Virus record (IMG/VR): IMGVR_UViG_3300015195_000004
Span: 24,710-88,709 of that record
DNA: 64,000 bases
From: a virus
Direction: 5' to 3' (one strand)
Below the pieces are notes generated by a model. It was given only the letters and a program-made list of their open reading frames with translations, was not told where the DNA came from and did not search any database. Positions 24,577-60,488 of the stretch are shown here, piece after piece. The position numbers were made by a program, and so were the translations under genes. Positions within the stretch are counted from its first letter, which is position 1. Every line of letters starts with the position of its first letter.

Positions 24577-24806
24577 ATCTTTTCTCCTCTGTGATTCCAC
24601 AATCCTAGTAAACACATAATTAAGTACACTGAATAGCTGCAAAATAAGCCCCAAGCGTGATAGTGCCATGCAACCGGCATTAAGGCTACATCAGATAAAG
24701 TGCCTAACAAAAACCCCTGGTTAGGCCTCTTATAGGCCAGCATCATTGATCCTAAGGGACCAGCAACAGAACCTAGTATCTCCAGTACCCAATAAGGATT
24801 AAGCAA
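24573..24806 (-). CDS. PnuC- or nicotinamide-transporter-like small membrane protein
   Basis: 77 aa from a TTG start that overlaps the preceding stop. Three hydrophobic segments contain MLAYKRPNQGFLLGTLSDV and MPVAWHYHAWGLF, then CLLGLWNHRGEKI. The layout and the G-x-x-N/W-x-W residues recall half of a SWEET/PnuC-type transporter or phage small membrane proteins. The assignment is tentative. Confidence 0.4.
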   Translation of the reverse strand: MLNPYWVLEILGSVAGPLGSMMLAYKRPNQGFLLGTLSDVALMPVAWHYHAWGLFCSYSVYLIMCLLGLWNHRGEKI

Positions 24807-43423: not shown

Positions 43424-43897
43424 ATGAATGTCCGTTCTCCCGAAGAAAGGTTCTGGGAAAAGGTAAATATTCCTGATGACAGGAATCTTTGTTGGCTCTG
43501 GACAGCGTGTGTAAATCCTGCTGGATATGGAGTTTTTGCATTAAGTAGGACCAAGCAAACAATTGCTAGTCGATATTCTTATTTATTAAATACAGGCTCA
43601 ATTCCTAAAGATATGTTTATATTACATAAATGTGATAATCCTCCATGCGTAAACCCAGAACACCTGTTCGTGGGTACTCAAAAAGACAATATGATGGATA
43701 AGGTTAATAAAGGAAGAGGCACTAAAGGAGAACAAGTTGGCTCTTCTAAACTGTTAGAAAAGGAAGTTTTAGAAATAAAAAATAGTTTTAAGGATAATCC
43801 TGTATTCGGGGCTCAAATAAAATTAGCCAGGACGTATAAAGTAGACGTTAAGACAATCCAAAGAATACTAACTAACCAGATATGGAAGCATGTGTAA
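43424..43897 (+). CDS. HNH endonuclease, homing type
   Basis: 157 aa. LCWLWTACVNPAGYGVF, then HKCDNPPCVNPEHLFVGTQ, is the HNH_3 core with the catalytic H-x-C-x-N-x2-C-x-N-x2-H. A C-terminal HTH-like segment (ARTYKVDVKTIQRIL) supplies DNA binding. This is the common free-standing phage homing enzyme, inserted between small genes and the primase. Its N-terminus (MNVRS) repeats that of the primase gene, suggesting insertion at a duplicated start. Confidence 0.8.
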   Translation: MNVRSPEERFWEKVNIPDDRNLCWLWTACVNPAGYGVFALSRTKQTIASRYSYLLNTGSIPKDMFILHKCDNPPCVNPEHLFVGTQKDNMMDKVNKGRGTKGEQVGSSKLLEKEVLEIKNSFKDNPVFGAQIKLARTYKVDVKTIQRILTNQIWKHV

Positions 43898-45769
43898 GTG
43901 ATGAATGTAAGAAGTAGTTTAATATCTTGGGGATTAATTCCTGCCCACCAGACCCCAAACTCTTCAGGAGAATTCATCCTGCAGTGTCCCGAATGTAAGC
44001 ATGATCCGGCAAAGTGCTTCGTTAACGGCGGAGGAAAAGGAATTTCCTGTAAGCACTGCTCTTACAGCCCTTCATGGAGGAAATTTGCATTAAGGTATCA
44101 GCCCCCAAGCAAAGAAGACGAAGCATTAGAAACATTTGTTAAGGCGTGTGAAGAGAGATTGCTTCAAGATCACGAACTTATTGCATACTTAACAGAACGA
44201 GGGCTTACCAAAGATACTATTAAATCACAACGCTTAGGTTATTGCGACCCTAGGATGTATAAAGCTTCTGAGATTGATGTTAAGGTTCATTTGGCTTACG
44301 AAGATTCGTTCTCTTGGGAACTAGAGAATAGGATCACAATTCCATACACAGAAGATTCAATAGTTCTCACAGTCAGAGGAAAATCATATCCTGATCTTGA
44401 GGCAAAGCCCAAATATAAATCCCTTAAGGGCAGCAAATCCTTACCTTATATTCCTTCAAAACTTGATACTGATTTACCAGTTATACTTGTTGAAGGGGAA
44501 CTTGATTCTATCATTCTTCGTCAAAACGGGATACAAGCTATAGGCATTCCTGGAGCAGGGAACTTTAAACCTGACTGGACCTCTCATCTGAAGCATTTAT
44601 ATATTGCCTTTGACGGCGACGAAGCGGGCCAAAAGGGTGCAGACAAAGTAATTAAGCAGATTCTTGAGATTCGCCGCATTGATCTTCCTGAAGGTTACGA
44701 TGTTGGAGAGTATATCTCTACATTCGGAGTAGAGTCTTTTAAATCACTAATTGATAAATCCGTTTTTTACCTTCAAGGTAAACCGCAGACTGATGACAAA
44801 CTCTCTTCTTTAGTTGATGCATTCTTGGATTGGGCTTGGAGCAACCACGGCACAATCGGTCCTAAAATCCTATGGGCTCCGAGGCTTAATGAGGTATTTT
44901 CCGGTTGGTCTCCTGGGCTGTACCTATTAGGTGCAAGAGAATCATTTGGGAAGACTAAGCTTTTAACTAAAGCTATTTATGCAGCAGCAGCAGAGAATCC
45001 AGAAGACACAATAGCAGTCTATGTTTCTCTAGATGACCCTCTTCACTCATCATTAGCAGGATTCATTGCCCTTCATACCCAAATAGATATTAATGATGTT
45101 AGAAGTCCTAGGAATAAACTAGAACATGACACTATTAAACTAGCAAATTACCTAGAATTTGTTGAGACCTTTAAACACATGAAGAACCTTATTGTACGGG
45201 ATGGCTCACATGGAAAAAGGATTAGCACATTAAAGTACTTCTTAAAATCCCTTAGGGCAAAGTACCCAGACAAGAAAATCGTCTGTGCAGTAGATAGTTT
45301 ATCCAAATTAGTCCCAGATAGGGAGAAGGATGAGCAGCATTTTGATGCCGCCTCTATGGGGAATGTAAAGGCTTACCTTGCCACTTCCGTTAAGGATATG
45401 GCAGTCAGGTACGAAATAGCTCTAATCTCTCCCACAGACCTCAGAAAGACCCTTCCTGGCGTACCTCCTACTATTGCCGACCTATCAGGCGCAGCAGAGT
45501 TAGGTTATGAGGCTGATGTAGTGATGATCCTGGATAATGAAATGCAGACGGTAGGCAGTACAAGCAAGCTAACCTGGATGGATGAAGAGAATGGGAATAA
45601 ACTAGAGCCTATTATTGAACTTAGGGTTCCGAAGAATAAGATAACCGGGTCAGACAGGCAACATCTAATGTTTAAACTACTTTCTAGGCAATCTGATTTA
45701 CAGGAACTAAGTCTAGAAGAGCAGCGTTATTATGAATCATTAAAATATAGTAGTGAAAACTCTCATTAA
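43898..45769 (+). CDS. TOPRIM primase-helicase
   Basis: 623 aa. Zinc-binding N-terminus: LQCPECKHDPAKCFV with GISCKHCSYS (C-x2-C...C-x2-C). TOPRIM domain around residues 195-255 (ILVEGELDSIILRQNG, then YIAFDGDEAG). Helicase with Walker A GARESFGKT (about residues 345-353), Walker B VCAVDSLSKL, and a conserved Arg region near the C-terminus (KNKITGSDRQ). T7 gp4-like. It unwinds DNA and makes primers at the fork. Confidence 0.85.
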   Translation: MMNVRSSLISWGLIPAHQTPNSSGEFILQCPECKHDPAKCFVNGGGKGISCKHCSYSPSWRKFALRYQPPSKEDEALETFVKACEERLLQDHELIAYLTERGLTKDTIKSQRLGYCDPRMYKASEIDVKVHLAYEDSFSWELENRITIPYTEDSIVLTVRGKSYPDLEAKPKYKSLKGSKSLPYIPSKLDTDLPVILVEGELDSIILRQNGIQAIGIPGAGNFKPDWTSHLKHLYIAFDGDEAGQKGADKVIKQILEIRRIDLPEGYDVGEYISTFGVESFKSLIDKSVFYLQGKPQTDDKLSSLVDAFLDWAWSNHGTIGPKILWAPRLNEVFSGWSPGLYLLGARESFGKTKLLTKAIYAAAAENPEDTIAVYVSLDDPLHSSLAGFIALHTQIDINDVRSPRNKLEHDTIKLANYLEFVETFKHMKNLIVRDGSHGKRISTLKYFLKSLRAKYPDKKIVCAVDSLSKLVPDREKDEQHFDAASMGNVKAYLATSVKDMAVRYEIALISPTDLRKTLPGVPPTIADLSGAAELGYEADVVMILDNEMQTVGSTSKLTWMDEENGNKLEPIIELRVPKNKITGSDRQHLMFKLLSRQSDLQELSLEEQRYYESLKYSSENSH

Positions 45770-45970: not shown

Positions 45971-46044
45971 TGAGTAAAGGTCAAATATTTCTAGTAGCGT
46001 TTTCTTTAGGTATATTAACTGCCTTATTCTGTGTGTCTTTATGA
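45970..46044 (+). CDS. 24-aa membrane micro-protein
   Basis: MSKGQIFLVAFSLGILTALF, single membrane helix. Coupled on both sides (TAATG start, ATGA end), which supports translation despite the length. Function unknown. Confidence 0.4.
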   Translation: MSKGQIFLVAFSLGILTALFCVSL

Positions 46045-48014
46045 GTGATAAGATATATTATTCAGTAAGTACGCTTCGCCAAATGTCTGTCTGCCCTGCC
46101 CGCGTGTTTTTTAAAGGGCTTGCAAAAAAGGGTTTAATTAAAACAGACCCCTCTTTACCATTTATTTTTGGCATTGCTGCTCATGAAGGAGTAGAGGCCC
46201 TTCTTAAAAATGGTGAATCTTCTAAAGTTGTGGCAAACAAGTATGTTAAAGATAATCTTCTTGACAAATACACAGTTAAGAACCTACAAGAAGTAGACAT
46301 TAGTACAGAAGATATTCAGGGAAAACAGGCCCATTTAGATAAGTGCCTTGACAACTTTGAGAATAAGATAATGCCGCGCCTAGTAGAAGCAAACCCAAGC
46401 ATGGATTGGGCTGATAGGGTAGAAGTTAGGTACGAGGCACCTTATCGTAACGGGGTTATGGTAGGCGTGATTGACCTTGATATGGATCATTCTGTCATGG
46501 ACTGGAAAGGTCTAGCACTAGACACCCCAATTCCAACTGTAACCGGATGGAAGAATATGAAGGAATTGCAAGTCGGAGATGAGATATTCGGAAGTAATGG
46601 GCACCCTTGTTTGGTAACAGCTAAATCTGAAATCCACAGCAAAAAATGCTATAAAATTACTTTTGATGATAAAACATCTATTATTTGTGATTCAGACCAT
46701 AAATGGGTTACCTATAACAACATAACCAAGCTCGGAAATCAGGACCACACAAAATTCCGACGCAATAAAAGAACACTAACTACAGAAGAGATAAAAGACA
46801 CCCTATTAGATTCAAAAGGTAAACATCACCACAGAATACTTAATCCGGGACCACTTGTTTTGTCGGATAAACAATTGTCAATTGACCCGTATGTACTAGG
46901 GTTATGGCTAGGTGATGGTAGTTCTAGAGATAGCAGAATCTGTAGTGCAGACCCAGAAATTTTTGATATTATAAAATCTAAGGGTTATGCTTTGGGTATC
47001 CCAGAAATAAAAACAAACGAAAAAACTGGAGTAGTTACAGAAGTTATATCTATAATAGGGCTACAAGCCGACCTTATGTCGTTTAATCTGTTAGACAATA
47101 AGCATATTCCAAACGAATACTTGAGAGGTTCATATAATCAGAGATTAGAACTACTTCAAGGATTAATGGATTCTGATGGGACATATAACCAAGTAAGGTC
47201 ACAAGCTGTATTTTGTAACAATAATGCAAATTTAGCTTACGGCGTACTAGAACTAGTTTTAAGCTTGGGCAGTAAAGGCAGAGTTTTCCATGTAAATAAA
47301 CATGGTTTTGGGCTTACAATAGAATCGTGTGATACTGCATTTACTCCTGTAGGATTTAATCCATTTAAATTGTCTCGGAAAAAAGAACTAGTTAAGGTTC
47401 AGACTATGAAAACAGGAAACTGTGCTATGTCATTCAGGCGTCTGATTATGAAAATAGAAGAAATAGCTTCTGTAGAAACTCAGTGTATTATGGTGGATTC
47501 AGAAGACAGCACTTATCTTTGTGGGCAACAAATGGTACCTACTCATAATAGCGGCAAGGCTATACCTTATATGTCTAGTCTAATGATTGACCCGCAGCCT
47601 CCCACATACCACTTCCTAAAGACCCAAACCCAAGGCTCTGCTCCCTCTAGGTTCTCTTTTGTTTACTTAATTGGTAAACCTACAAGACAGATACAGGATG
47701 GAGTCTATAAAAGCGGTCCTCGTAAAGGCCAGCCCAAAATGGCATTAGATTATGAGAACGGCCTACAGTTTAAGTTTGATGTTCTACAGGATGAAGCTAA
47801 AGTAGCTAAGATGTTCAATGATTATATTGATCCTTGGGCCGAGATGTATGAAGCAGGCATTATATATAAAAACCCAGGTTATAATGGAATGAACTGTAAG
47901 GGTTGCAGCTATCGCACCGCTTGCCAAAAAGAAGATTATCAACTACCCAAGAGGCCAGACCTGGCAACAAAAGACCCTAACGGAATAGACGTAGACCTAC
48001 TAGGAGGAGAATAG
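46041..48014 (+). CDS. Cas4-like RecB-family exonuclease interrupted by a class 3 intein
   Basis: 657 aa, of which residues 157-503 are an intein. The extein parts are a PD-(D/E)XK nuclease: SVCPARVFFKG (Cys18), HEGVEALL, VGVIDLDMDHSVMDWK (catalytic D...D-x-K) and, after the intein, a CKGCSYRTAC C-terminal cluster. Together with Cys18 these form the four-cysteine Fe-S site of Cas4/AddB. The nuclease probably processes DNA ends for the RecA-like recombinase or replication. The intein sits directly on the D-x-K active site, so splicing must occur to give active enzyme. Confidence 0.85.
   Translation: MSDKIYYSVSTLRQMSVCPARVFFKGLAKKGLIKTDPSLPFIFGIAAHEGVEALLKNGESSKVVANKYVKDNLLDKYTVKNLQEVDISTEDIQGKQAHLDKCLDNFENKIMPRLVEANPSMDWADRVEVRYEAPYRNGVMVGVIDLDMDHSVMDWKGLALDTPIPTVTGWKNMKELQVGDEIFGSNGHPCLVTAKSEIHSKKCYKITFDDKTSIICDSDHKWVTYNNITKLGNQDHTKFRRNKRTLTTEEIKDTLLDSKGKHHHRILNPGPLVLSDKQLSIDPYVLGLWLGDGSSRDSRICSADPEIFDIIKSKGYALGIPEIKTNEKTGVVTEVISIIGLQADLMSFNLLDNKHIPNEYLRGSYNQRLELLQGLMDSDGTYNQVRSQAVFCNNNANLAYGVLELVLSLGSKGRVFHVNKHGFGLTIESCDTAFTPVGFNPFKLSRKKELVKVQTMKTGNCAMSFRRLIMKIEEIASVETQCIMVDSEDSTYLCGQQMVPTHNSGKAIPYMSSLMIDPQPPTYHFLKTQTQGSAPSRFSFVYLIGKPTRQIQDGVYKSGPRKGQPKMALDYENGLQFKFDVLQDEAKVAKMFNDYIDPWAEMYEAGIIYKNPGYNGMNCKGCSYRTACQKEDYQLPKRPDLATKDPNGIDVDLLGGE
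46509..47549 (+). mobile_element. Class 3 intein with LAGLIDADG homing endonuclease
   Basis: 347 aa within the 46041 gene. It opens GLALDTPIPTVTGW with Gly at position 1, not Cys or Ser. It ends VPTHN before a Ser extein residue. The class 3 triad is present: Trp222 two residues after the block B His (SDHKWV), Cys482 in block F (QCIMVD), Thr501 in block G. Block C and E motifs LGLWLGDGSS and LLQGLMDSDGTY are the two LAGLIDADG repeats of a homing endonuclease. Confidence 0.85.
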
Positions 48015-48017
48015 TAT

Positions 48018-48230
48018 ATGAATAGTGCAGCATTTAGTGATTATTCGAGAGCTAAGGCAATGAGGGAAGTTAAGGCCCTTAAACTGCTCCAGTTATTTGA
48101 ATCTAATAAACTTATTCACATAATTGAGGACAACCTGGAAACAGAAAATACTTGGGATGGCCACATTCCTGTAATTAACAAAATTTGTTTTACAAAAGAC
48201 ATTGAAGATTATCTTAAGGATACAGACTAG
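48018..48230 (+). CDS. Hypothetical helical protein
   Basis: 70 aa, begins MNSAAFSDYSRAKAMRE, acidic C-terminus (DIEDYLKDTD). Begins 4 bases after the Cas4-like gene. Function unknown. Confidence 0.5.
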   Translation: MNSAAFSDYSRAKAMREVKALKLLQLFESNKLIHIIEDNLETENTWDGHIPVINKICFTKDIEDYLKDTD

Positions 48231-48231
48231 A

Positions 48232-48585
48232 ATGCTATCCAGGGGGGAAGAGTTGTTATTAACTATCCTTGGATTACAGTTCCCACATTATACTATAATC
48301 CCACAGAAAACGATTAAAGTAGGATACAAATCCCTCTACCTAGACTATTACATCCCACAGTTAAAGATGGCATTTGAATTCGACGGGCAACAGCATTTTC
48401 AGTTTATTTCCTTCTTTCACAAAACGCTGAAAGGCTTCCAAAATAGTCTTAAAAGAGATTCTATGAAGGATAAGTACTGCCGAGAAAATGGCATTACACT
48501 TGTGCATATACCGGACAATGGTAAACTAACCCTAGAAAAAGTAAGGAATATTATATCAAAAATACCAATATACGAAAGTGAGTAA
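48232..48585 (+). CDS. Vsr/DUF559-like PD-(D/E)XK endonuclease
   Basis: 117 aa from the ATG after the previous stop. LYLDYYIPQLKMAFEFDGQQHF is the D...E-x-D-G-x-Q-H core, followed by a charged helix (KDKYCRENGITLVHIP). The fold is that of Vsr-type and DUF559 nucleases, often homing or mismatch-linked in phages. It follows the replication nuclease and may be mobile. Confidence 0.7.
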   Translation: MLSRGEELLLTILGLQFPHYTIIPQKTIKVGYKSLYLDYYIPQLKMAFEFDGQQHFQFISFFHKTLKGFQNSLKRDSMKDKYCRENGITLVHIPDNGKLTLEKVRNIISKIPIYESE

Positions 48586-48591
48586 AACACA

Positions 48592-49278
48592 ATGAATAAA
48601 CTACTCTCGCTAATGTCTTTAATTAGCATAATTACCCTCGGATTTATGAACCCAGCATCGGCTGCTTATCAATATGAGTCCTGGTCCGGTTTTACCGCAG
48701 GAACAATTTTTTTAGACGGACATATCTACGGTAATTGGAAAGATCAATTTAATGGAGGCGGCACTACGGAGGTATTTAATCCGGGTACACTTATCACCAC
48801 TAAGTGTCTATCGGAGTGGCCTGCATATGTTTACGGTTCTACCCGGTCAACTATGGTAACATCTACTACAGCCTTTAGTTCTAATAATTTCTATGCATAT
48901 TCTACGTTTGTAACTTTGTCCCAGAACAGACCTAGCCCAAATAGCTGGGAAATGGGATGGTTTGTGTGGGACTATACAGATAATGCCCATTTTTATAATG
49001 TAATTCTAAGAACTGATGGATGGGAACTGGACAAAGAGGACCCGGCGTATCCAGGTAATCAGCGATTTCTTACCTCAGGTTTTAGTCCGACGTTTGCATT
49101 AGATAGTGTAAATACAATAAGTGTTACACAAAGCTCTAATGTTATTACAGTGAACGTGAATGGTAATTACTTAACTAGCTATACCGATATGCAAAGACCA
49201 TACTATGGTGGAAAAATCGGACTATATGATGAAGATTCTCATGTAGCCTGGGGAGTAACTGCTGCAAGCTCTAACTAG
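48592..49278 (+). CDS. Secreted jelly-roll (DUF1080/laminin-G-like) protein
   Basis: 228 aa. Signal peptide residues 1-24 (MNKLLSLMSLISIITLGFM, cleavage after SAA). The rest is a beta-sandwich with the sequence WEMGWFVWDYTDNAHFY, GWELDKEDPAYPG and YYGGKIGLYDED. The same module occurs at the C-terminus of the next protein at near 45-50% identity by eye. Such concanavalin-like folds bind or cleave carbohydrates. Probably exported to act on cell-surface or matrix polysaccharide. Confidence 0.7.
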   Translation: MNKLLSLMSLISIITLGFMNPASAAYQYESWSGFTAGTIFLDGHIYGNWKDQFNGGGTTEVFNPGTLITTKCLSEWPAYVYGSTRSTMVTSTTAFSSNNFYAYSTFVTLSQNRPSPNSWEMGWFVWDYTDNAHFYNVILRTDGWELDKEDPAYPGNQRFLTSGFSPTFALDSVNTISVTQSSNVITVNVNGNYLTSYTDMQRPYYGGKIGLYDEDSHVAWGVTAASSN

Positions 49279-49338: not shown

Positions 49339-50934
49339 ATGAAAAATACACTAAAACTAGCTACCCTTATATTAGGGGTAGTACTTATATCCTGTGGTGG
49401 AAAATCCATCACCCCTACCCCTCCTAATAGTATTAATAAAACCGCCTCATTTATCCCTCCGTCTTGGATATGGGGTGTAACTACAGATAATGTAGTGAAT
49501 AACACATTGTCACAAACCACAGCACTTTCATCATTCTCAAAAAGAACAATGATTAGAACTGTGTTTGACCAGCCCAAAAATGGATCACCTGTAGCATCAG
49601 ATTATTTAGCTTCAGTTACATCAGTTTCTGCAGTTTCAGACATTTTAGGCCTATTGATTGATTCTAGTGACATGCCTAATTCAAGTCTTTCTTATGTACA
49701 ATCTAGAGTTTCGTCCTATTTATCTGCACTAGGAAGTAAAGTTGCAGTATGGGAAGTCGGCAATGAAATTAATGGTAATTGGCTTGGGTCAGGAGTTATT
49801 CCAAAAGTAGAAGCTATGTATGATGCAGTAAAAGCTGCTGGAAAGCCTGCAGCAATTACCTTTTACTATGAAAACCCGATAACCCCAGGATATGATATGT
49901 TACCCTGGATTGATGCTAATATTCCTGCAGGTAATCGTATGCGAACAGGACTTGATTACGCATTTGTAAGTTATTATGAAGACCAAAACGGTGGCCATCA
50001 GCTTACGCAAACCGAACTAAATACAATATTCTCTGGGTTACACGCTAGATTCCCTAATGCTAAACTTGGATTTGGTGAATGTGGTTATGGTGGGACAATT
50101 CCACCAGCAGGAAGTGGAGATGTCACCAGGGCAGCACTACTTAATAGATTCTATGGATATAGAGTCCCTACAGTCCCGGCATTTATAGGAGGTAATTTTT
50201 ACTGGAACTGGAATTACACCTCTGTACCAAAAAGCAAGCCTGATTGGACAGTCCTTAATACTCAGTTCCAAAATAACCCAGCCCCCTCACCTACTCCTAC
50301 TGTAGCACCAACTGCGACACCCACAGTAGTTCCTACATCTACACCATCAGCATCTCCTACTGGAACCCCTTGGATTGATGGGCAAACATATGGTCCTTGG
50401 TATGACCAATATGGGGGATATGGAGTAATCCAAACAGTAGGAGCAAATATATCACTAACTCCGCGTTATACTGCTGGTAGTACAGAAGCAAGTCTAATAA
50501 CTACTTCAGCAGCCTTCGGGGACTTTACTGCACAAACCACAATGACAACTGTATCACAGAACAGACAGCCTAATCCTAATGCGTGGGAAGCTGCTTGGTT
50601 CCTGTGGCACTACACAGACGATAACCACTTCTATTCACTAGTTCTTCATACTGATGGTTCAGGATGGGAATTAGGAAAAGAAGACCCAGCATATCCAGGA
50701 TCACAACGATTCCTAGCAACACCAACAACTCCCAGTTTCCCAATGGGAAGCCCTTATACAGTCAAAGTAATTCAGTCAGGTGCGACAATGTCTATATATG
50801 TCAACGGGGCATTCTTAATCACTTATGTAGATACAGAACGCCCATACTACTCTGGAAAAATTGGTCTTTACACAGAAGATGCCCACGTAGTATTCACACC
50901 ACTTACCATAAATAATCTAACCCTATCTTGGTAA
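49339..50934 (+). CDS. Lipid-anchored glycoside hydrolase with jelly-roll domain
   Basis: 531 aa. Lipobox LISC at Cys19. Residues 45-310 form a TIM-barrel-like domain with VWEVGNEINGNW (probable acid/base Glu143) and FGECGYGG (probable nucleophile Glu247), the clan GH-A arrangement. A Pro/Thr-rich linker (PTPTVAPTATPTV) follows. The C-terminal domain (WEAAWFLWHYTDDNHFY, GWELGKEDPAYPG) duplicates the preceding gene. It is presented on the cell surface and should degrade an exopolysaccharide. Specificity unknown. Confidence 0.7.
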   Translation: MKNTLKLATLILGVVLISCGGKSITPTPPNSINKTASFIPPSWIWGVTTDNVVNNTLSQTTALSSFSKRTMIRTVFDQPKNGSPVASDYLASVTSVSAVSDILGLLIDSSDMPNSSLSYVQSRVSSYLSALGSKVAVWEVGNEINGNWLGSGVIPKVEAMYDAVKAAGKPAAITFYYENPITPGYDMLPWIDANIPAGNRMRTGLDYAFVSYYEDQNGGHQLTQTELNTIFSGLHARFPNAKLGFGECGYGGTIPPAGSGDVTRAALLNRFYGYRVPTVPAFIGGNFYWNWNYTSVPKSKPDWTVLNTQFQNNPAPSPTPTVAPTATPTVVPTSTPSASPTGTPWIDGQTYGPWYDQYGGYGVIQTVGANISLTPRYTAGSTEASLITTSAAFGDFTAQTTMTTVSQNRQPNPNAWEAAWFLWHYTDDNHFYSLVLHTDGSGWELGKEDPAYPGSQRFLATPTTPSFPMGSPYTVKVIQSGATMSIYVNGAFLITYVDTERPYYSGKIGLYTEDAHVVFTPLTINNLTLSW

Positions 50935-50995: not shown

Positions 50996-51643
50996 TTGAT
51001 TAATTTATTTCTAGCAGTATTATTATTTATAACCCCACAACAAGAAGTTCGTTCTTCTTCACATAGTATAGTCAAAGTTAATCGAAACACTGATACTATT
51101 TGTACAGGGTTTATTATTAACACCCCCGGCACTGTTAATACATATGTGATGACTGCCAAACACTGTAGAGACCCTATCACAAAAACTGACACAGGACTTC
51201 CTACGGCTATTATACAGCAAAATGGACACATTTCATTTGTGAATAATGTATTTAGCTCAGAATCACAAGATATTATGTTACTAGAAATAGATAAATTGCC
51301 TCTAAATGGATTTATATTATCTTCAGATAGAATGCAACCTGGTGGTCAATATTACACAATTAGCCACCCTATTAATTATGAGTATATCTATTCACCTATT
51401 ATTGGCTCTAGTGTGTTTAAGGAGTCTATAAAGACAGAATACCGTTCGGTAGATGTTGGCTATGATAATGTAATAATTTGCCCAGGATGCGCCGAAGGTA
51501 CTTCAGGTGCTCCTATTATATCAGATGGAAAGGTATTTGGTATTCTATTGGCGAAGTCTACCAGTATTCCGTCGGTCTTATTCTCTACCTCAAGTATTAA
51601 CATATTAAGATTTATGACCGCATTGAAAGGTATTATACATTAA
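50996..51643 (+). CDS. Secreted trypsin-like serine protease
   Basis: 215 aa from a TTG start after AAAGAAGAAAA. Signal peptide about residues 1-20 (MINLFLAVLLFITP). Catalytic triad: H56 (VMTAKHC), D92 (QDIMLLEI), S170 (GCAEGTSGAP, the G-T-S-G-A-P oxyanion motif). A chymotrypsin/V8-like extracellular protease is unusual in phage replication modules. Could degrade competing surface proteins or the host envelope during infection. Confidence 0.75.
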   Translation: MINLFLAVLLFITPQQEVRSSSHSIVKVNRNTDTICTGFIINTPGTVNTYVMTAKHCRDPITKTDTGLPTAIIQQNGHISFVNNVFSSESQDIMLLEIDKLPLNGFILSSDRMQPGGQYYTISHPINYEYIYSPIIGSSVFKESIKTEYRSVDVGYDNVIICPGCAEGTSGAPIISDGKVFGILLAKSTSIPSVLFSTSSINILRFMTALKGIIH

Positions 51644-56008: not shown

Positions 56009-56659
56009 ATGAAAGTTCTGGACAATGGACATCTAGAAGTTGTTGACTCTATGGGCAATGATCTTACAACAGTTAATGCCGCAAGAGTTTCAATGGGGAA
56101 ATCTTCAGACGAATTCTCAGAAAAAGATGCTAAACTCATTAAATATTTAGCAGAACACAATCACACATCCCCTTTTAGGCATTCTTTTATTAGTTTTAGG
56201 TGGAAGGCCCCTATTTCGGTCCAAAGACAGGTATTTACTCACCACCAAGGCATTTCTTCTAATAGCGAAAGTTCTAGATATATTGAAATAAATGAAGAAT
56301 TTTATGTCCCTGAAATAATGCGTTCGCAATCTAAGAATAATAAACAAGGCTCAGGAGAACCTTTAGACACAATTAGTCATATTTTATCTAAATGTATGTA
56401 CTTAAAAGCGTGTGAAACTTCTTTTCAACAATACACGAAAATGTTAGACTATGGAGTAGCTAGGGAACAGGCGAGAGATGTTCTTCCTATGTGTACATAT
56501 GTGTCCTGGTACTGGACTGCTAGCCTTCAGGCTATAGCACACTTTATTAACCTAAGAAGCGGCGAAGGTTCACAATGGGAAATAAATCAATATGCCGATG
56601 CTATGAAGATATTGACACATGAACTATTTCCTATAAGTTTGGAGGCATTACTAAAGTGA
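56009..56659 (+). CDS. thyX: Flavin-dependent thymidylate synthase with HHQ motif
   Basis: 216 aa. NHTSPFRHSFISFRWKAPIS and SSNSESSRYIEINEEFYVP are ThyX signatures. The canonical RHR-x7-S motif reads HHQ (residues 78-80) with x7 then Ser88. The C-terminal helix (REQARDVLPMCTYVSWYW) is the NADPH/dUMP region. It makes dTMP from dUMP without folate oxidation. Works with the dCMP deaminase and RNR. Confidence 0.85.
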   Translation: MKVLDNGHLEVVDSMGNDLTTVNAARVSMGKSSDEFSEKDAKLIKYLAEHNHTSPFRHSFISFRWKAPISVQRQVFTHHQGISSNSESSRYIEINEEFYVPEIMRSQSKNNKQGSGEPLDTISHILSKCMYLKACETSFQQYTKMLDYGVAREQARDVLPMCTYVSWYWTASLQAIAHFINLRSGEGSQWEINQYADAMKILTHELFPISLEALLK

Positions 56660-59849: not shown

Positions 59850-60488
59850 ATGAATGAAGAACAGCCAGTAATTTATGATATTATCCCCGCAGAACCCGTT
59901 CCAGGAATCGAGTACGATTCTCGTAAAAGGGCAAAGGCTATTAGAGAGGCTCAAGTAAGGTCTAGTATTCGTATGCGCGAAGGATTTCGAGTAATAACCA
60001 ATCCTAATGATCCTCGCTTGCACTGCCCTAATAAAGTAGTTAAGAACCCCCAGGACTTTGAAGTAGTTGAAATGTCCCGTACCTTGGTTGCCCTACACCT
60101 CATAGCAGGAGGCGTAGGTTTGGCTGCACCGCAAATAGGCTGGAATGTTAAGGCCTGTGCGATAGCCCTTATGGATGAAAAGGGTCTTCCAACTCACAAC
60201 ACAGTAGTTCTTTATAATCCTCGGATCATAGCGGCAACTTCTGTGGAAGATGACAACATTGAATATCAGGAGGAAGGGTGCCTCTCAGTCCCAGGAGTAA
60301 CGGCTGAAGTGTGCCGCCTGAAAAGCCTACAATTCATTGCGAGCACATTCCAGAAGCCTAAAGAAGAATATTATACTGCTACTGGTTTGTTTGCCCGTTG
60401 CCTAGCCCATGAAGTGGGGCACCTTAAAGGGAAACTATTCCTTGATGAGGCCTATGTTAGGAATGTGAAGAGAGAAGAAGCAAAATGA
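59850..60488 (+). CDS. def: Peptide deformylase
   Basis: 212 aa. All three motifs are present: GVGLAAPQ (88-95), EGCLS (142-146) and HEVGH (187-191), giving Fe/Zn ligands Cys, His, His and catalytic Glu. N-terminal extension of about 60 residues beyond typical phage deformylases. Removes formyl from nascent proteins, helping rapid folding of phage or leaderless-translated products. Start directly follows the zinc protein. Confidence 0.85.
   Translation: MNEEQPVIYDIIPAEPVPGIEYDSRKRAKAIREAQVRSSIRMREGFRVITNPNDPRLHCPNKVVKNPQDFEVVEMSRTLVALHLIAGGVGLAAPQIGWNVKACAIALMDEKGLPTHNTVVLYNPRIIAATSVEDDNIEYQEEGCLSVPGVTAEVCRLKSLQFIASTFQKPKEEYYTATGLFARCLAHEVGHLKGKLFLDEAYVRNVKREEAK

Follow-up and report, generated by a model that had tools for sequence, protein, structure and literature searches.

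Class 3 inteins are defined by the lack of an N-terminal nucleophile together with Trp at B:12, Cys at F:4 and Thr at G:5, the WCT triad (PMC3196547). In 2016, 40 intein-containing Cas4/RecB-like exonucleases with insertions in the PD-(D/E)XK motif were described in C1 mycobacteriophages and placed in this class (PMC5050341), and the class 3 intein of phage Catera (Gp206), which is probably a member of the same C1 exonuclease family, splices in a model precursor (PMC3196547). The class 3 inteins of M. smegmatis DnaBi1 (6bs8) and M. chimaera DnaB1 (6rix) interrupt DnaB, and the solved proteins are mini-inteins devoid of an endonuclease. PI-SceI, the yeast VMA intein, combines the splicing fold with a two-motif LAGLIDADG endonuclease and follows class 1 chemistry, unlike the intein described here.

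We analyzed a stretch of 64,000 nucleotides (hereafter, the window; positions 24,710 to 88,709 of the IMG/VR virus record IMGVR_UViG_3300015195_000004) that contains, on the plus strand at 46041..48014, an open frame for a 657-residue precursor. We interpret this locus, with high confidence, as a phage exonuclease of the PD-(D/E)XK, Cas4/RecB-like type that is interrupted by a mobile class 3 intein. The C1 exonuclease inteins, represented by Ghost gp214, share with this intein the WCT triad, the LAGLIDADG endonuclease, the insertion point just behind the Lys of (D/E)xK and the host superfamily; however, Ghost gp214 starts with Ser1 rather than Gly1, is followed by Thr rather than Ser at position +1, is only 34-35% identical and falls on a separate tree branch beside a TerL-type intein. 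The inteins of Streptomyces phage Frankenweenie gp79 and Mycobacterium phage Traft412 gp72, both in Cas4-family exonucleases, belong to the same clade as the window intein, occupy the same codon and share Gly1, the WCT triad and two LAGLIDADG motifs at 42-46% identity, whereas their exteins are barely similar to those of the window and their +1 residue is Thr instead of Ser. The DnaB inteins 6bs8 and 6rix resemble the window intein in the splicing fold, the WCT triad, the terminal THN, the +1 Ser and the presence of a counterpart of the redox-active Cys, but differ in their host protein, in starting with Ala1 and in lacking the endonuclease. PI-SceI matches it over the full length, at 18% identity.

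Anatomy and class of the intein

The intein comprises 347 residues, Gly1 to Asn347 (precursor residues 157-503; 46509..47549, with the Gly1 codon at 46509), and separates an N-extein of 156 residues (46041..46508) from a C-extein of 154 residues that begins with the +1 residue Ser504 at 47550 (47550..48014), the junctions reading DWK/G...N/SGK. It opens with GLALDTPIPT, carries HKW in block B and closes with QCIMVDSEDSTYLCGQQMVPTHN immediately ahead of Ser504. The boundaries and the position of Cys482 given in a preliminary description of this DNA proved exact to the base, and the Gly start and THN-Ser end that it reported are all in place. Block B contains the catalytic His64 and the triad Trp66, separated by Lys (46698..46706; codons starting at 46698 and 46704, respectively), block F the predicted nucleophile Cys326 (protein Cys482; 47484..47486), and block G Thr345-His346-Asn347 (47541..47549). 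Thus, position 1 holds no Cys, Ser or Thr nucleophile, the WCT triad is formed by W66, C326 and T345, and the block B His (H64), the C-terminal His-Asn (H346-N347) and one of the residues Ser, Thr or Cys at +1 (Ser504) are all present.

Relatives were collected by searching IMG/VR and GTDB genomes with a six-row alignment, and annotated phages were added. Across the 168 full inteins aligned, His64, Trp66, Cys326, Thr345 and Asn347 are invariant, as would be expected if, as had been proposed from the WCT triad, Cys326 were the nucleophile of the class 3 mechanism (PMC3196547). Of 35 columns with ≥97% conservation in its 167 relatives, the window intein retains every one, and of 56 columns with ≥90% conservation it retains 55, a level no worse than typical. 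In a phmmer search against the PDB, class 3 DnaB inteins were matched at E 4e-19, the best being 6rix and 6bs8 at ~71 bits (top 71.5), with the class 1 gp41-1 intein and an engineered variant behind them at 28-33 bits; tblastn matched the intein in 727 phage records. The PDB match, the phage records and the 35 conserved columns place the identification of an intein far beyond chance, and in a tree built without a class 1 outgroup the window intein sits among class 3 relatives. By the defining residues listed above, 46509-47549 is a class 3 intein.

The N-terminal Gly had been regarded as an oddity that need not inactivate the element. The second part of this view holds, but the first does not: 28 of the 168 inteins begin with Gly, compared to 115 with Ala and 14 with Pro, and at the insertion site shared with the window intein (see below) Gly is the first residue in 20 of 21, Ghost having Ser. 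The same residue raised the question of whether an alignment would place a first Cys or Ser elsewhere, that is, whether this is a class 1 intein with a misplaced start and a true Cys1 or Ser1 nearby. The chance of this is negligible. In the alignment, the starts of class 3 inteins coincide with that of block A, GLALDTPIPT, on which ground the class 1 assignment was dropped; the immediate surroundings of position 1 contain neither Cys nor Ser, leaving only the distant S151, and removal at G1 and N347 leaves DWK-SGK, which fits the intein-free DWKTG of phage Blue.

Decay of a class 3 intein, with loss of splicing and a dead nuclease, has a precedent in Arth_1007 of Arthrobacter FB24 (PMC3196547), but is very improbable here. 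The retention of 35/35 and 55/56 conserved columns, that is, a single loss at the 90% level and none at 97%, argues against it; furthermore, the Arthrobacter pseudogene lacks the block F Cys and the block B His, both of which are present in the window intein, the 657-codon frame is open, and the exteins retain the nuclease residues.

A structural model, which had been suggested as a check, was obtained for the intein with AlphaFold (60 sequences; pLDDT 95). It superimposes on the class 3 DnaB intein 6bs8_C with Z 20.4 and 1.3 Å over 124 of 125 residues, and on PI-SceI with Z 27.7 over 332 residues; in a model of the whole precursor, the extein part was poorly predicted. The two matches indicate that the intein is predicted to be a splicing fold enclosing a two-motif LAGLIDADG endonuclease. 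Both motifs had been noticed in the sequence and are intact: LGLWLGDG (46896..46919) retains the acidic D136, and LLQGLMDSDG (47151..47180) retains D221 and D223. The G+C content of the intein is 0.36, compared to 0.40 and 0.43 for the exteins, and at third codon positions 0.27 compared to 0.36 and 0.39, as expected for an insert and in line with mobility. Nothing pointed to a group I intron, the window yielding no Rfam families and no tRNAs.

The interrupted nuclease

The host protein belongs, with good support, to the PD-(D/E)XK nucleases of the Cas4/RecB-like superfamily, with the insertion at the active site. With the intein in place, the precursor matches PDDEXK_1 (PF12705; Pfam cut-off 22) at 28.9 bits over profile positions 2-146; after removal, the score rises to 47.9 bits and the spliced extein spans positions 2-247 of 247, with the D and D-x-K present, so that excision of the intein would restore a full-length PDDEXK_1 nuclease. 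The spliced host also matches PHROG exonuclease families and one CRISPR-associated family. The label "Cas4-like" used in the preliminary description therefore stands at the level of the superfamily and not for Cas4 proper, given that the unspliced protein scores 15.4 bits against the curated Cas4 model TIGR00372, far below its cut-off of 65. The host contains one N-terminal cysteine, C18, and the C-terminal set C619-x2-C622-x5-C628; this arrangement resembles that of Cas4/AddB-type Fe-S nucleases, whose cluster is bound by a single cysteine near the N terminus and three near the C terminus. In the window nuclease, the cluster is putative.

Alignment of 14 intein-bearing precursors assigns H48, D145, D154 and K156 of the N-extein to the active site; G142, D145, D154 and K156 are invariant among these nucleases, and G44 and H48 are nearly so. 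All six residues precede the intein, K156 being the last residue before it. Contrary to the earlier reading that the insertion splits D-x-K, this motif is whole, and it is the downstream part of the nuclease that is displaced. Because 347 residues directly follow the catalytic Lys156, a normal active site is unlikely in the precursor.

The anatomy, the conservation of the class 3 residues, the fold and the same-site relatives, along with the regained nuclease domain and an intein-free allele in the related Blue/Traft412 system, are established here. The splicing chemistry proposed below draws on class 3 biochemistry (PMC3196547, PMC7664689), and the activity of the window copy in both splicing and DNA cleavage is inferred by analogy. 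Cys326, assisted by His64, Thr345 and Trp66, would attack the Lys156-Gly1 peptide bond, and the N-extein would be passed as an acyl group to Ser504. Cyclization of Asn347 would then be followed by joining of the exteins to give ...VMDWK-SGKAI.... The LAGLIDADG domain, in turn, would cut alleles lacking the intein, close to the codons for DxK-(T/S)-G, enabling the intein to spread by homing.

An alternative is that splicing is regulated, so that the intein would switch nuclease activity post-translationally, for instance, when oxidation links Cys47 to Cys326 by a disulfide. In the class 3 intein M. smegmatis DnaBi1, a Cys48-Cys118 disulfide formed under H2O2 stops splicing (PMC6195587), and the alignment identifies counterparts of both cysteines in the window intein, Cys47 (46647..46649) and Cys326; the insertion, moreover, adjoins the catalytic Lys. 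Nevertheless, such a switch appears unlikely, considering that a homing element accounts for both the position and the spread without benefit to the host. Because Cys47 is found in ~91% of class 3 relatives, and so is no special adaptation, the cysteine pair is a permissive feature rather than evidence of a switch.

One insertion codon in diverged nucleases

The same codon, directly after the Lys of (D/E)xK, is occupied by 20 other inteins in phage and actinobacterial nucleases, namely, those of Frankenweenie, Traft412, Rollin, a gut phage, Ghost gp214, 12 IMG/VR contigs and three actinobacterial genomes (Frankiaceae, Nocardioides and Nonomuraea). The three actinobacterial members (L093 in a Frankiaceae MAG, L095 in a Nocardioides MAG and L131 in Nonomuraea) belong to the site clade, and two of them reside in RecB-like proteins that, judged only by their sequence, do not seem to be encoded by phages. 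At +1, 19 of the 21 site inteins have Thr and one has Cys; the window intein alone has Ser, a frequent residue at other class 3 sites (93/147). The single site-mate with Cys at +1 is that of L015, around position 1176 (DLK/..THN/CPG). When spliced in silico, the exteins matched PDDEXK_1 at E <0.01 in seven of nine cases tested, five of them above the Pfam cut-off.

An intein-free allele is available for one of these genes: gp69 of phage Blue aligns with the spliced Traft412 exonuclease in one piece over 274 of 274 residues at 97.8% identity and reads VVDWKTGLKP where Traft412 has VVDYK/intein/TGLKP. For the window gene, a tblastn search of phages with the spliced extein, at E up to 0.01, recovered no intein-free allele, and IMG/VR pattern scans with the extein, the intein and the DNA polymerase of the window phage found no relative. 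The collections searched contained no near-identical phage DNA and no near relatives of this phage.

A tree calculated for 76 inteins unites the window intein with 19 site-mates in one group (100/92). Ghost gp214, of the C1 RecB/Cas4-like type, groups instead (99/97) with L074, an intein at a GGGK/ site that looks like a terminase ATPase motif; this position agrees with the reported clustering of C1 RecB inteins with TerL1-d (PMC5050341). Given the separation of the window clade from the Ghost/C1 branch in this tree, which lacks a class 1 outgroup, two class 3 lineages appear to have arrived at one codon.

When the 21 site inteins and their exteins are compared pairwise with BLASTP, similarity is detected in 210/210 cases for the inteins but in only 25/210 for the exteins. 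That the inteins are alike where their hosts are not points to movement of the element between diverged nucleases, which fits mobility, although the gap could be due in part to more rapid evolution of the exteins. A bolder reading, that a Gly1 class 3 clade has specialized on the codon for the catalytic Lys in PD-(D/E)XK enzymes, jumping between barely similar nucleases, and that here it additionally operates a Cys47-Cys326 disulfide redox switch, we regard as unlikely.

Genomic neighborhood and significance

Two free-standing endonucleases are encoded close to the intein-bearing gene, on the same strand. One, an HNH endonuclease (43424-43897; HNH_3 and PHROG HNH/homing families), ends one base before the primase-helicase gene that starts at 43898; the other, of homing type (48202-48585; phrog_559, phrog_9084 and phrog_7140), lies just downstream of the interrupted nuclease, and with it there are three mobile endonucleases within ~5 kb of replication genes. 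Further along the plus strand, two secreted-looking neighbors (48592-49278 and 49339-50934) share, by eye, a common C-terminal domain, GWELDKEDPAYPGNQRF and GWELGKEDPAYPGSQRF, and the second is lipoprotein-like with a sugar-active-looking front half, an unusual cargo between replication genes. Directly before recA, the product of 50996-51643 (+) displays, also by eye, an AKHC...GTSGAP pattern like that of trypsin-type serine proteases. Phage-borne genes for thymidylate synthase (56009-56659, +) and peptide deformylase (59850-60488, +) are present as well.

Both the insertion site and the host type have been described previously (PMC5050341), and the window intein adds a separate lineage. The known RecB/Cas4-like class 3 site now extends beyond the C1 mycobacteriophages to a clade found across unrelated phages and actinobacterial chromosomes. 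The contrast between 210/210 intein pairs and 25/210 extein pairs makes this clade a useful case for the question of how little DNA homology homing requires, and the window provides a class 3 intein combining Gly1 with Ser at +1 for studies of splicing.
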